Shown: positions 16,235-19,501 of the stretch, piece by piece
Numbering within the stretch: position 1 is the stretch's first letter
Layout of the letters: each line of letters begins with the position of its first letter
IMG/VR virus record: IMGVR_UViG_3300031857_000500
Location: 1-39,476 of that record
Length of the DNA stretch: 39,476 bases
Source: a virus
Direction: 5' to 3' (one strand)
The notes under the pieces: generated by a model
What the model was told of the DNA's origin: nothing
Database searches by the model: none
The model's input: only the letters and a program-made list of their open reading frames with translations
Translations under genes and position numbers: made by a program

Positions 16235-16287
16235 ACTTTACCTTTCATTGTTAAACGCTCAGCAATTTACCAAGCGTACCGATAGTG

Positions 16288-16316
16288 ATTATATCACTAC
16301 CAATTCTAGAAGTCAA
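16288..16316 (-). promoter_or_regulatory. Minus-strand promoter P5, TTGACT-N17-TATAAT
   Basis: Read on the minus strand: TTGACT (16316-16311), exactly 17 bp, then TATAAT (16293-16288). It overlaps the last codons of the amidotransferase gene and would drive the 96-residue protein and downstream genes including WhiB. It shares hexamers and spacing with the promoters at 18727, 19403 and 19473. Confidence 0.72.
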
Positions 16317-17181
16317 GTGGTTCTTTACTGTACCACTTATTACTTAAGTATCCATACTCCTCGCCTATCACCTTCTTTTGATTAGGGTGATAGCATAGGC
16401 AATCTAAGAAGTTTGCTTGACAATCAAAGCAACTCTCACACATCTGACAATAGTATTCGTTCTCCCATAGGTCTACTATTGACTCGCAACTAGGACACTC
16501 GAACTTGTTGTCCTCATATAGCGAAGGGTTGAAGTGGTCATCTGATACCACAATATCATACACACTAGGCTCATCACCATAGGTATAATTATAGGTGCTA
16601 GTGCGTGGCGTGGATACGATAGGCTTATGAGAGTTATTACTCCACCATACACCATTGTCGTCCCAACTACCTAAACTTTCGTTGATAATATAAATCTTAT
16701 ACTGTGCGCTAGGGTCATTGGTCATGATAGCAACCTTGTTGCCACTAGCCCATGAACTAATCATATCATATACATAGTCGTCATCTAACGCAGACACACC
16801 ACCTAGTCTAGGCAATAACTCCTCTGCCATAATCCTAGTGTCGCTACGCTTATCACCTTTAGGTATATGAATATCTAACACACCATTGTGCGCTAAGTAA
16901 GTATCGTGCTCACCCACTACCTTAAATGGGTGGCAATTAAGTTCGTTCTTAACCCCATGAGTAGCATACCTAGCGTGCCACATAGCGTAGCCATTAGGGT
17001 ACTGCTCTCTAAGTTCTAAGAACCTAGCAATAGACTTCTTAGCGGACATACTGCGCTCTGATATAATACCATCACCAGTATCTATCGCAAAGCCAAAGCC
17101 ATGTGGGTTCTTACAAGCACCCATGCTTAGGTCATCTTTACTAGGTGTGGAATTAGGATTACACACTACTAGCAGACACAT
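16306..17181 (-). CDS. Class II glutamine amidotransferase-like protein with zinc ribbon
   Basis: 291 residues. After removal of Met1, Cys2 would be the N-terminal nucleophile (CLLVVCNPN). Other Ntn-amidotransferase landmarks are WHARYATHG (R71, H75), LAHNGVL (N99, G100) and SDTRIMAEEL (D114). Residues about 230-262 form a Cys-rich ribbon (CPSCESIVDLWENEYYCQMC and more Cys). Class II enzymes release ammonia from glutamine for a partner ligase. The gene directly downstream of the amidoligase (12 bp apart) makes that partner obvious. The ATG has GGAGAT 5 bp upstream. Confidence 0.83.
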   Translation of the reverse strand: MCLLVVCNPNSTPSKDDLSMGACKNPHGFGFAIDTGDGIISERSMSAKKSIARFLELREQYPNGYAMWHARYATHGVKNELNCHPFKVVGEHDTYLAHNGVLDIHIPKGDKRSDTRIMAEELLPRLGGVSALDDDYVYDMISSWASGNKVAIMTNDPSAQYKIYIINESLGSWDDNGVWWSNNSHKPIVSTPRTSTYNYTYGDEPSVYDIVVSDDHFNPSLYEDNKFECPSCESIVDLWENEYYCQMCESCFDCQANFLDCLCYHPNQKKVIGEEYGYLSNKWYSKEPLDF

Positions 17182-17193
17182 ATATCTCCTCTC

Positions 17194-18408
17194 TTACGCA
17201 TTGACTAACTCATTACTGTTGATACTTAATGAGCGTACTTTGGACATACGCTCATATAAGTCAGAGTAAAAGCCATTGTTGGCTTCTACATAATCATAGA
17301 ACCAATCCCAACCTAGCATACCTAACTTAACATCAGACAGCGTGAGGTTGCGAGTATATTCTATACTAGCGTGTGCTAATTGTATAGCACTACGAACACC
17401 GCTTGGCTTAGTAGTCCCTCTAAAGAACCTAAGTTCTAGCGTGTGTTCGTTCTGCGTATTTACCGCAGAATATCTCTCGGTCATGGCTTCTCTAGGCGAC
17501 TTGACCTTATCGGCTAGAGTGAAGTATGGTCTATCGTACTCATCATACTTCCATACATCATTGAACTTGGCGTAGTCTGACTTACGACCCGCAAATCTCA
17601 TCATATCGGGTGCGTTCTTGTACACTAATGCTAACCATCTATGTACATGTGCGCCACTCTTAAACCCTGCTCGACTTACATGTATATGTAGTCCGCAACT
17701 CTTAGCGTCCCATGCCCTTGCTTCTTGGTGTTCTCTTAGATAGTCTAAGGTCTTATCGAATAGTGGGAAGTCAGACCAACTACTAAAGGATATAGGGTGA
17801 GATACTAACTCAAAGCCACGATAGCCACCTTGATTTATACTACTATCCTGCTTCATATAAACCCACTCGCCTATATTTTCTGCTACATATTTAGCACTAT
17901 TGTCTAGTTCACCCGACCTAATCTCCATCTCTAATTCTATCCCAAAGTATAGGTTATTCTTATCTTTACCTATAAACTTAGGGTCGGGCTTGTAAGAGTA
18001 GTCGTTGATAAGTCTAGAACCCCTACCACCCTCACCACAATTAGTACACCCTCTAGCATAATACTGGTCGCACTCCTCGCAGTATGAACCTTCATGCTCA
18101 TAGCAATTTTCGCACCAATACTCACCCCTATCCTCGATATTGTACATGCTCTCGTTCTCGGAATATGTACAACTACATCTCTCGCAATAGTGAGTGTGGT
18201 TCTCCCAACAACTCTCACAATAATCACCGATACCCTCTACATAATGGGTATTCTCATTGTGGCAATACTCCTCACAATAATTACACCATGAGCGACAATC
18301 CTCGCATAGTAGGTCATCACCCACCAGCATGTAATCGTCCTCATTAGTAGAACGATAATCACATGTGGCACAACCATACTCGGTGTCCTCATCATCATCT
18401 ATCGGCAT
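17194..18408 (-). CDS. Amidoligase with N-terminal zinc-ribbon array
   Basis: 404 residues. Residues about 13-125 hold at least eight CxxC knuckles (CATC, CEDC, CNYC, CESC, CERC, CENC, CEEC, CTNC), a chain of small zinc ribbons. Residues about 150-400 match the amidoligase family of COOH-NH2 ligases with a glutamine-synthetase-like fold: FGIELEMEI (156-163), KQDSSI (186-191), FELVSHP (199-205), CGLHIHVS (238-245) and LELRFFRGT (324-332) supply the Glu, Asp, His and Arg positions for ATP, Mg2+ and substrate. Family members were predicted to make isopeptide bonds in peptide or wall modification, often with a class II amidotransferase in phages, exactly the pairing here. Substrate unknown. Confidence 0.82.
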   Translation of the reverse strand: MPIDDDEDTEYGCATCDYRSTNEDDYMLVGDDLLCEDCRSWCNYCEEYCHNENTHYVEGIGDYCESCWENHTHYCERCSCTYSENESMYNIEDRGEYWCENCYEHEGSYCEECDQYYARGCTNCGEGGRGSRLINDYSYKPDPKFIGKDKNNLYFGIELEMEIRSGELDNSAKYVAENIGEWVYMKQDSSINQGGYRGFELVSHPISFSSWSDFPLFDKTLDYLREHQEARAWDAKSCGLHIHVSRAGFKSGAHVHRWLALVYKNAPDMMRFAGRKSDYAKFNDVWKYDEYDRPYFTLADKVKSPREAMTERYSAVNTQNEHTLELRFFRGTTKPSGVRSAIQLAHASIEYTRNLTLSDVKLGMLGWDWFYDYVEANNGFYSDLYERMSKVRSLSINSNELVNA

Positions 18409-18419
18409 ATCATCACCCC

Positions 18420-18599
18420 CTATTTTATAGGTAGTTCTAGTTCTATCATTATATCATTTATTTTATTGCGTAGCAAGTTAGTAGCCATAGCCATACTCTT
18501 AAAGTCTGACCTAGTATACCAACCCTCTTGAGTTCTCAAGGATTTTCTTATTAGTTCTAAGTCGTCCTTGCTAATCTCGATTACGATATTTTCGTCCAT
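18420..18599 (-). CDS. 59-residue hypothetical protein
   Basis: Begins MDENIVIEISKDDLELIRKS and continues with a helical, charged sequence (WYTRSDFKSMAMATNLLRNKI). The start overlaps the upstream stop (TAATG), and the gene ends 11 bp before the amidoligase. No family recognised; part of the transcription unit from promoter P4. Confidence 0.58.
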   Translation of the reverse strand: MDENIVIEISKDDLELIRKSLRTQEGWYTRSDFKSMAMATNLLRNKINDIMIELELPIK

Positions 18600-18700
18600 T
18601 AGCGACCTCTATACTCTAGGCGACCTTGTAATCTATTTACTCTAGCAACTAAACCGATAATCGCTAAAGTCTGGACTACCACCAGTATCTCTAATAGCAT
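18599..18700 (-). CDS. 33-residue single-pass membrane peptide
   Basis: ATG with AGAGAGG upstream on the minus strand. The peptide begins MLLEILVVVQTLAIIGLVAR, a clean transmembrane helix, then a basic tail (VNRLQGRLEYRGR). It is the first ORF after promoter P4 and overlaps the next start by TAATG. Small membrane peptides in this position are common in phage early operons. Confidence 0.55.
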   Translation of the reverse strand: MLLEILVVVQTLAIIGLVARVNRLQGRLEYRGR

Positions 18701-18726
18701 ACTCTTATCCTCTCTACTTATACCTA

Positions 18727-18755
18727 AGTATAGCATACTTAGGGCTACAAGTCAA
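18727..18755 (-). promoter_or_regulatory. Minus-strand promoter P4, TTGACT-N17-TATACT
   Basis: On the minus strand: TTGACT (18755-18750), 17 bp, TATACT (18732-18727), about 27 bp upstream of the 33-residue membrane peptide. The bases after the -35 box (TGTAG) are the same as in promoter P3 at 19473. It would drive the amidoligase/amidotransferase genes. It starts 20 bp downstream of the tRNA-like element. Confidence 0.7.
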
Positions 18756-18774
18756 GTACCCTCGACTTATGGCG

Positions 18775-18825
18775 TGTCCTAGTGGGGTATCGAACCCCAT
18801 AGACACCCGACCTACGGGCTAGGAC
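18775..18825 (-). ncRNA. tRNA-like element lacking normal D and anticodon arms
   Basis: On the minus strand GTCCTAG (18825-18819) pairs perfectly with CTAGGAC (18782-18776) as a 7-bp acceptor-like stem followed by an unpaired A (18775) at the discriminator position. Abutting the 3' strand with no gap is a perfect T-arm: TGGGG, loop TTCGATA (fits TTCRANY), CCCCA. Between the 5' acceptor strand and the T-arm there are only 19 nt, enough for one small hairpin (CCCG-TAGGT-CGGG) and a 6-nt linker, so it is not a normal tRNA. It starts 8 nt after the stop codon of the upstream gene. It could be an RNase P/RNase Z processing site, an aminoacylation or elongation-factor decoy, or a degenerate tRNA. 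Confidence 0.6.
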
Positions 18826-18833
18826 TATCGGCA

Positions 18834-19160
18834 CTAATTATAGTTGCCGACTAATTTACGATAATTTTCTGCTTGATTAGCCTCGAACTCACGCCTACGC
18901 TCATCTAAGGCAATAGTACGCAATTCTAAATCGGTTAAGGGTTTAGGGCTAGTATCTTTAGGCTTAGCGTTCTTAATTGTACGCCTAGCAAGTTTAACCG
19001 CTTGACTATCCTCGATAGCCACGATTATATTGCCCGCCTTATCACGCACCACTAGATTACTAAATCGCTTAGAGCGTGAGCCATGCCACGCCTTAGACGA
19101 CCTAACATCTCTAGGGGGTGTGATGATACTACCGCTAACCCCATAGGGGTTGTACGGCAT
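18834..19160 (-). CDS. Hypothetical basic protein, first sizeable gene of the minus operon
   Basis: 108 residues with AGAGAGGTAAGATA before the ATG. The N-terminus (YNPYGVSGSIITPPRDVRSS) is extended and basic; the middle has a beta pair (FSNLVVRDKAGNIIVAIED); the C-terminus is a charged helix (LELRTIALDERRREFEANQAENYRK). No family recognised. Being first behind three tandem promoters, it is probably among the earliest and most abundant phage products, a position where host-takeover proteins are often found. Confidence 0.65.
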   Translation of the reverse strand: MPYNPYGVSGSIITPPRDVRSSKAWHGSRSKRFSNLVVRDKAGNIIVAIEDSQAVKLARRTIKNAKPKDTSPKPLTDLELRTIALDERRREFEANQAENYRKLVGNYN

Positions 19161-19293: not shown

Positions 19294-19322
19294 ATACTAT
19301 CACAAGTTTAGGCGGGTGTCAA
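19294..19322 (-). promoter_or_regulatory. Minus-strand promoter P1, TTGACA-N17-TAGTAT
   Basis: On the minus strand: consensus TTGACA (19322-19317), 17-bp spacer, TAGTAT (19299-19294). A palindrome TGTC-N6-GACA (19317-19330) straddles the -35 box and is a natural operator position. Nearest promoter to the first genes of the operon. Confidence 0.72.
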
Positions 19323-19378
19323 GTTCGACACGCCCTAAGTTCTAAGATAGTTCTAGTTCTTTATTTAGTTGTATCAAG

Positions 19379-19394
19379 TCAAGTTCTAACTTGA
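19379..19394. promoter_or_regulatory. Palindrome at the predicted P2 start site
   Basis: TCAAGTT-CT-AACTTGA is a perfect 7+7 inverted repeat with a 2-bp centre, lying just downstream of the expected P2 transcription start (about 19396). The CAAGTTC half also occurs in the palindrome over the P1 -35 box, so one repressor could bind both. Confidence 0.45.
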
Positions 19395-19402
19395 TAAGGA
19401 TA

Positions 19403-19431
19403 ATACTACCACGCTCACCAGCACAAGTCAA
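19403..19431 (-). promoter_or_regulatory. Minus-strand promoter P2, TTGACT-N17-TAGTAT
   Basis: On the minus strand: TTGACT (19431-19426), 17 bp, TAGTAT (19408-19403). A perfect TGTGA-N6-TCACA site begins 10 bp upstream of the -35 box (19442-19457). Confidence 0.72.
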
Positions 19432-19441
19432 GTCGTGTCGG

Positions 19442-19457
19442 TGTGAGATACATCACA
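19442..19457. promoter_or_regulatory. Crp/GlxR-type operator
   Basis: TGTGAGATACATCACA is a perfect match to TGTGA-N2-TA-N2-TCACA, the consensus of the actinobacterial Crp-family regulator GlxR and compatible with E. coli CRP. One more base on each side also pairs (GTGTGA...TCACAC). Its centre is about 53 bp upstream of the expected P2 start. Confidence 0.65.
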
Positions 19458-19472
19458 CGCAAGGCGGGCGGG

Positions 19473-19501
19473 ATTATACCATAAGCCTATCTACAAGTCA
19501 A
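19473..19501 (-). promoter_or_regulatory. Minus-strand promoter P3, TTGACT-N17-TATAAT
   Basis: On the minus strand: TTGACT (19501-19496), 17 bp, perfect TATAAT (19478-19473). A weaker Crp-like match (AGTGG-N6-TCACA, 19512-19527) begins 10 bp upstream of the -35 box, the same spacing as at P2, and is directly followed by the LexA-type box. Confidence 0.75.

Follow-up and report, generated by a model that had tools for sequence, protein, structure and literature searches.

A compact tRNA-like element after stop codons in phage operons, a probable signal for intercistronic mRNA processing

The element and its surroundings

The window analysed here is the whole 39,476-nt stretch of DNA of IMG/VR virus record IMGVR_UViG_3300031857_000500. 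It bears a 96-bp end repeat, by which the genome is probably circular or terminally redundant, at about 39.4 kb. A WhiB domain suggests that the host belongs to the actinobacteria, as does the terminase, whose closest annotated relatives are those of Streptomyces phages. Integrase was absent among the window proteins examined, and the region around the element described below had no convincing DNA similarity to known phages.

Between two ORFs of the leftward strand (Table 1) lies a 51-nt RNA element, hereafter the tRNA-like element or TLE, whose minus-strand sequence from 18825 to 18775 is GTCCTAG-CCCGTAGGTCGGG-TGTCTA-TGGGG-TTCGATA-CCCCA-CTAGGAC-A. Its acceptor stem (7 bp) encloses a D-like hairpin of 4 bp, a linker of 6 nt and a T-arm of 5 bp with a 7-nt loop. 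All seven acceptor pairs and all five T-stem pairs are formed, and the discriminator position is A. The original prediction had described these two stems, the TTCGATA loop, the discriminator and a 19-nt insert separating acceptor from T-arm, and the minus-strand sequence confirms each of them, as it does the placement of the element 8 nt after a stop codon and shortly before a promoter (P4), the -35 of which starts at 18755, 19 nt downstream of the TLE. The accompanying statement that there is no room for D and anticodon arms was half right: an anticodon arm is indeed missing, but the insert is made up of a 4-bp hairpin that covaries and has GG in the loop, together with the linker. This hairpin is best read as a D-like arm, which leaves the anticodon arm alone absent. 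No terminator-like site was found near the TLE. Because a promoter directly follows it, cutting at this site would be unnecessary for expression of the downstream genes in the window.

A strict descriptor (12/12 Watson-Crick pairs, a TTCRA loop and an insert of 15-45) matched the window once, at the TLE, and matched none of 60 Markov-simulated windows; a search of the genome against itself likewise found a single copy. A canonical tRNA was rejected because acceptor and T-arm are only 19 nt apart, a cloverleaf with an anticodon arm is lacking, and ARAGORN called no tRNA in the window, in answer to a check that the original prediction had suggested. Fold energy gives a modest z of -2.0, and a competing fold that includes the flanks comes close in energy; since fold energy by itself is therefore unconvincing, the proof of the element is comparative.

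Several other features of the leftward strand deserve mention. Four extended -10 promoters with a -35 of TTGACT or TTGACA are distributed along the leftward control region, at 19294-19501(-) and 18727-18755(-), and several promoters of that region lie inside AAGTC/GACTT inverted repeats. At 16306-18408(-), two adjacent genes encode proteins that resemble a class II glutamine amidotransferase and an amidoligase. Right at the stop of the glutamine-amidotransferase-like ORF begins a second intercistronic structure, at 16235-16305(-), composed of two near-perfect 10-12-bp hairpins that are not tRNA-like and that close relatives keep; it is possibly another processing or stabilising module. At the junction after the amidotransferase-like ORF, relatives L043, L034, L010, L067 and L087 have a different conserved and seemingly structured sequence of ~90 nt (TAGTATTCCTTCTAGCCCTTGA...CTGCTCACC), which had no Rfam match in L043, L034, L010 and L087.

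Table 1. Features at the element, and hammerhead ribozymes and TLEs at ORF ends in relatives
Feature	Location	Strand	Basis
Whole TLE (acceptor stem, D-like hairpin, linker, T-arm, discriminator A)	18775..18825	(-)	Sequence; covariation; covariance model R1, 73.7 bits
Acceptor 5' strand GTCCTAG; G1 is the predicted RNase P cut	18819..18825	(-)	Pairs with 18776-18782; double changes in 4/7 pairs in the near group
D-like hairpin CCCG-TAGGT-CGGG	18806..18818	(-)	CCCG/CGGG to CCGA/TCGG, compensatory, in relatives
T-arm TGGGG-TTCGATA-CCCCA	18783..18799	(-)	TGGGG/CCCCA to TAGGG/CCCTA in relatives; 3/5 pairs with double changes
Acceptor 3' strand CTAGGAC	18776..18782	(-)	Covariation in relatives
R73-C74 (discriminator A and C74)	18774..18775	(-)	R73 in 42/42 and C74 in 42/42 distinct elements
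3' hairpin, begins 1 nt past discriminator, overlaps P4 -35	18744..18773	(-)	Predicted fold; offset in relatives
Upstream ORF, 108 aa, function unassigned	18834..19160	(-)	Stop 8 nt before TLE; orthologues precede TLE in relatives
Promoter P4, TTGACT-17-TATACT, TG extended -10	18727..18755	(-)	Promoter reading of the sequence
Downstream small ORF; likely start ATG 18700, SD AGAGAGG	18599..18700	(-)	Read from sequence; ORF list gives 18599-18736
Type II hammerheads at leftward-operon ORF ends	L167 5045-5109; L172 1451-1517, 1698-1762	(-)	Rfam; descriptor
Type II hammerheads at leftward-operon ORF ends	L166 4116-4178; L163 2294-2360; L169 1248-1312	(-)	Rfam; descriptor
Hammerhead after orthologue of the 207-aa metallopeptidase-like ORF	L162, L163, L164, L166, L167, L169, L172, L245, L250, L253		
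TLE after orthologue of the 207-aa metallopeptidase-like ORF	L195, L280, L302, L304, L306		

Conservation and covariation in relatives

Queries with the 108-aa ORF before the TLE and the amidoligase-like ORF after it yielded about 20 IMG/VR contigs, and a DNA pattern search yielded 41 stretches; nearly all of those covering the junction retain the TLE in the same place. The original prediction had proposed a search for compensatory changes, and these were found in every stem. In the acceptor, for example, GTCCTAG/CTAGGAC is replaced by GTCGTAG/CTACGAC and by GTCCTGC/GCAGGAC.

We assessed pairing in three independently aligned classes. Among the near relatives of the window (class A1, 12 distinct sequences), 9/16 pairs had changed on both sides, 96.9% of cells were paired, and sliding the pairing partner abolished the signal. 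Class A2 had changes on both sides in 6/14 pairs with 99.4% of cells paired, and class A4 (8+4 bp) had double changes in 8/15 pairs with 92.7% paired, the latter in an alignment of a subset of the 8/4-class sequences, the mixed set A3 having been misaligned by MAFFT. For each of the three classes, 0/500 shuffles matched either the score or the number of paired cells. The TLE is thus conserved with compensatory changes in all of its stems.

A family defined by geometry and position

As terminase (TerL) relatives of lower identity were included, a second class was found after a different ORF (GCCCAC...GTGGGC, 6+6 bp), and moving the TerL query further outward gave more classes, including 8+4 bp (GTCGCGCA..., GCCCCCGC..., GCCCCGCA...) and 6+6 bp (GGCGTG...). 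In total the family comprises about 99 distinct copies in at least four structural classes; 84 of the 99 lie at ORF ends, a count that, like the others given here, does not represent independent events, the sequences being related. The 15 others include several that are chance matches, real tRNAs of phage Immanuel3 or contig-end sites. Covariance models R2 and R3, which were built without the window's class, recovered the window TLE as their sole match in the window, at E of about 0.5. Because cross-class detection is this weak, no single covariance model unites the TLEs; the family is united by the descriptor plus position.

The sum of acceptor and T-stem is almost always 12 bp, split as 8+4, 7+5 or 6+6. 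When the total length was left free, elements after stops had a sum of 12 in 39 cases, 11 in 11 and more than 12 in 1, and loop-permuted controls gave 1-5 elements at a sum of 12. As the sum is constant while the split varies, what is kept is the geometry of the tRNA top half. A true T-loop also goes with position: among 50 distinct, well-paired cores that have one, 34 start 3-14 nt past the stop of an ORF of at least 30 codons, compared with 0-5 cores after stops for five controls with altered, non-T loops.

Few nucleotides are fixed besides this geometry. Across 42 distinct cores, three of which were admitted by the nucleotides after the helix and so bias the position counts slightly, R73 (A or G) and C74 were each present in all 42, and A(-1) and G1-C72 in 41 each, with acceptor pairs 2 and 4-7 varying freely. 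Every class has about 6-11 nt of unpaired spacer ahead of G1. We rejected GG in the D-loop as evidence of a D/T contact, in that its 42 occurrences against 36.6 expected from composition are no enrichment.

The sequence that follows the element differs between groups. Within the ~39-kb clade, a 3' hairpin of unrelated sequence begins 1 nt past the discriminator in 31/40 cases and within 2 nt in 36/40. Instead of this hairpin, L130, L135 and L097 (about 96 nt) and L128, L140 and L143 (about 55 nt) have a larger structured RNA with a long closing stem, which begins 1-2 nt past the discriminator; an Rfam scan of L143 gave sub-threshold matches only. In the far group the TLE is only ~40 nt from the next ATG, with an SD and no promoter apparent by inspection, from which the downstream gene is probably read through the TLE; the mRNA that contains these elements would then extend into the next gene.

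Copies in GC-rich and other phages

A DNA pattern also led to G029, a phage contig of 89,220 bp and 66% GC with 38 ordinary tRNA genes by ARAGORN. Model R3 found 12 TLEs in it, all on one strand at 56-78 kb and away from most of the tRNA genes. Ten of the 12 start 5-9 nt past a stop, and most have an SD and ATG 27-38 nt further on. At the DNA level, neighbouring genes resemble sequences of actinobacterial phages and plasmids. These elements are not consistently followed by a 3' hairpin; we therefore rejected the hairpin as a universal part of the TLE and consider it a feature of the ~39-kb clade. TLE copies number 12 in G029, where they lie between genes, three in G031 and one in the window.

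R3 also gave three matches in OX376640 and a match in phage MO526 at E = 0.38 only, and a possible TLE of 39.7 bits was found at G039 75545-75590, which the descriptor did not recover. Matches of R1 at 7-18 kb of G029 were rejected as real tRNA genes, and a match of R3 in phage ScoobyDoobyDoo was rejected for its overlap with an annotated tRNA-Asp. R3 had no match in the named phages E3 and Immanuel3, and the GC-rich pattern matches L340-L349 contained no convincing further TLEs. Streptomyces phage JustBecause (MH744418.1) has an unannotated 46-nt tRNA-like element at 122849-122894(+), with 12/12 pairs, between its tRNA-Arg and tRNA-Asp genes (ACCTCCGG...CGGG ttcaaat CCCG CCGGGGGT), which is a possible TLE in a cultured phage.

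A scan of bacterial and archaeal genomes found a TLE on one contig only. This 3.3-kb contig (L241, RFQY01000240.1) belongs to a MAG labelled Rhodobacteraceae, and its sequence is of the phage-clade type; it is probably a mis-binned phage contig.

Hammerhead ribozymes at the same gene boundaries

Rfam identified type II hammerheads above cut-off in TLE-bearing relatives and in a neighbour (Table 1), with up to three per contig. The window, its operon included, has no type II hammerhead (RF02276; CUGANGA/GAAA core). The hammerheads of the relatives have that core. Of the 26 that a hammerhead descriptor found, 25 lie where an ORF ends; the start of each individually listed one falls -1 to +4 nt from the stop. 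In the case that we inspected, L167, loop I is complementary to the downstream tail, as has likewise been described for phage and bacterial hammerheads (PMC3088659). By its sequence, the ribozyme would leave a hairpin at the upstream 3' end.

Clustering of the ORFs that precede these elements gave one mixed cluster of hammerheads and TLEs. The junction after a 207-aa metallopeptidase-like ORF holds a hammerhead in 10 phages and a TLE in 5; the proteins of L162 (hammerhead) and L195 (TLE) are 48% identical. A second exchange occurs after an ORF of 52-56 aa (L172 hammerhead versus L202 TLE, 45% identical). Both come from a sister clade in which TerL is about 80-83% identical to that of the window. 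The presence of a self-cleaving ribozyme in the same slot is what most strongly suggests that the TLE functions in RNA cleavage.

Proposed function and alternatives

We believe that the TLE is probably an intercistronic processing signal in polycistronic phage mRNA, cut by host RNase P and presumably RNase Z. The leftward transcript would fold into a tRNA top half, with a coaxial acceptor/T helix of 12 bp, a T-loop and a D-like hairpin. Host RNase P would recognise this geometry and cut at G1, so that the upstream mRNA would end 8 nt past its stop; RNase Z would probably cut past the discriminator A and free the downstream mRNA. The 5' end so created would, in the ~39-kb clade, lie one nucleotide ahead of the hairpin, and a hairpin at the 5' end is known to be able to stabilise mRNA (PMC3997798). 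For the TLE, we infer that the site is transcribed through, which enzymes act and where they cut, and that mRNA levels are affected.

RNase P uses the acceptor/T stack as a ruler (PMC4919913), and its RNA contacts R73-C74 by pairing with the 3' RCC of the substrate (PMC12710915). The ruler, an unpaired A(-1), R73 and C74 are all present in the TLEs, in which position 75 is mostly G; encoded C75-A76 being missing, only part of the RCCA contact is possible. No CCA follows the discriminator, and most TLEs read A73-C-G at this point. CC after the discriminator is an anti-determinant of RNase Z, and this anti-determinant is accordingly absent from most TLEs. There are precedents for both enzymes: mascRNA, which has a reduced D arm and is not aminoacylated, is cut by RNase P and then by RNase Z (PMC11693755), and the known non-tRNA substrates of RNase P include phage and operon RNAs (PMC11143913). 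Three explanations had been offered in the original prediction, and the RNase P/RNase Z site is the best supported of them, by virtue of the 12-bp ruler, R73-C74, the position after stops and the replacement by hammerheads.

Two other explanations are, in our estimation, unlikely to a similar degree. The first is that excision of the tRNA-like RNA yields a trans-acting small RNA as the actual product, serving, for example, as a decoy for a tRNA-binding host enzyme or a tRNA-sensing defence factor. A stable, compact and conserved fold is compatible with this, and mascRNA is a precedent for an excised tRNA-like RNA with a fate of its own (PMC11693755). However, stem sequences are wholly divergent between relatives, which keep the geometry alone; a genome can have several differing copies, as many as 12 in one contig; and linkage to stop codons is strict, while the hammerheads found in exchange yield no such RNA. 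The second is a 3'-end module, in which RNase Z or another nuclease would act alone and the upstream mRNA would keep the fold as a 3'-terminal cap that blocks 3' exonucleases; CCA might be added to it, by analogy to the tRNA-like 3' ends of plant viruses. That every TLE lies directly past a stop codon, that the hammerhead counterpart also leaves an upstream 3' hairpin, and that the surroundings lack a terminator-like site all speak for such a module, yet the invariant A(-1) and R73-C74 and the free 5' side, including the spacer before G1 in every class, suit entry of RNase P as well.

A feature acting at the DNA level, such as an operator or a replication hairpin, might be suspected in the window, where a promoter adjoins the TLE and the 3' hairpin overlaps its -35. 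We regard this as very improbable: the elements always lie in coding-strand orientation past stops, also far from promoters, and the T-loop is specific when compared with permuted loops. Less probable again is mimicry of an aminoacyl-tRNA or of a ligand of EF-Tu or the CCA-adding enzyme, the second of the explanations originally offered. The T-loop and acceptor are there, and CCA could be added after RNase Z, but nothing points to such a role: no identity element is conserved besides G1-C72 and A/G73, and the similar mascRNA is not aminoacylated (PMC11693755). The third, a tRNA gene remnant, has next to no chance of being correct, and neither has an attP core taken over from a host tRNA, despite the resemblance to a tRNA 3' half, given that covariation extends to both strands of the acceptor as well as to the D-like arm and T-arm, that the 12-bp sum is invariant across many unrelated acceptor sequences with many copies at ORF ends, and that bacterial and archaeal genomes yielded one contig and the proteins examined no integrase.

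Turning from the single element to the family, we lean, with somewhat less assurance, towards the view that a family of actinophages splits its polycistronic operons by means of interchangeable elements, namely hammerheads and minimal tRNA mimics that have no anticodon arm and rely on the host's RNase P and RNase Z. If true, DNA viruses would have tRNA punctuation of their own, with the smallest natural tRNA mimic employed for that job. The TLEs would constitute a natural family of minimal RNase P/RNase Z substrates, as predicted here, in which geometry and not sequence is kept across dozens of phages, and the replacement of a TLE by a hammerhead at the same gene boundary serves as an evolutionary test of function. 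The family also suggests that phage operon mRNAs have designed cut sites more commonly than one would conclude from terminators and RNase III sites, and TLEs would be a source of short, portable cassettes for operon splitting.

Comparison with known systems

Rfam gave no match in the window at the gathering score. At a permissive threshold the nearest model was mascRNA-menRNA (RF01684), which aligned end to end at 22.1 bits versus a cut-off of 42.5; membership was rejected because of this score and because a 6-nt linker replaces the anticodon-like second stem. The open-access literature that we searched contained no description of such a phage TLE family, in agreement with the original prediction, whose author knew of no described phage element of exactly this layout.

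With canonical tRNA the TLE shares the 12-bp coaxial acceptor/T stack and the TTCRA T-loop. The closest likeness is to mascRNA and menRNA, from the 3' ends of MALAT1 and MEN beta, which also have a 7+5 bp acceptor/T stack, a reduced D arm and a T-loop within a longer transcript; mascRNA, however, keeps an anticodon-like stem and derives from a vertebrate nuclear lncRNA, whereas the TLE is shorter, has no such arm and lies between phage genes. tmRNA and other anticodon-less tRNA-like domains present an acceptor and T-arm that RNase P recognises, as proposed for the TLE, but alanine charging and an mRNA portion are features of tmRNA that the TLE does not possess. Among non-tRNA RNAs cut by RNase P are the his operon, T4 gene 32 mRNA, phi80 M3 RNA and the P1/P7 C4 antisense RNA (PMC11143913). 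These operon and phage sites are single cases, in contrast to a covarying family at successive ORF boundaries. Type II hammerheads (RF02276), with phage precedents (PMC3088659), provide intercistronic cleavage in the same slot after stops and are interchangeable with TLEs in relatives; they cleave themselves, while the TLE would need host enzymes. In mitochondrial tRNA punctuation, finally, tRNA structures between reading frames mark the release of mRNAs by RNase P and RNase Z, as we propose for the TLE, but that system uses real, functional tRNAs, and the TLE is a minimal element that is unable to decode.
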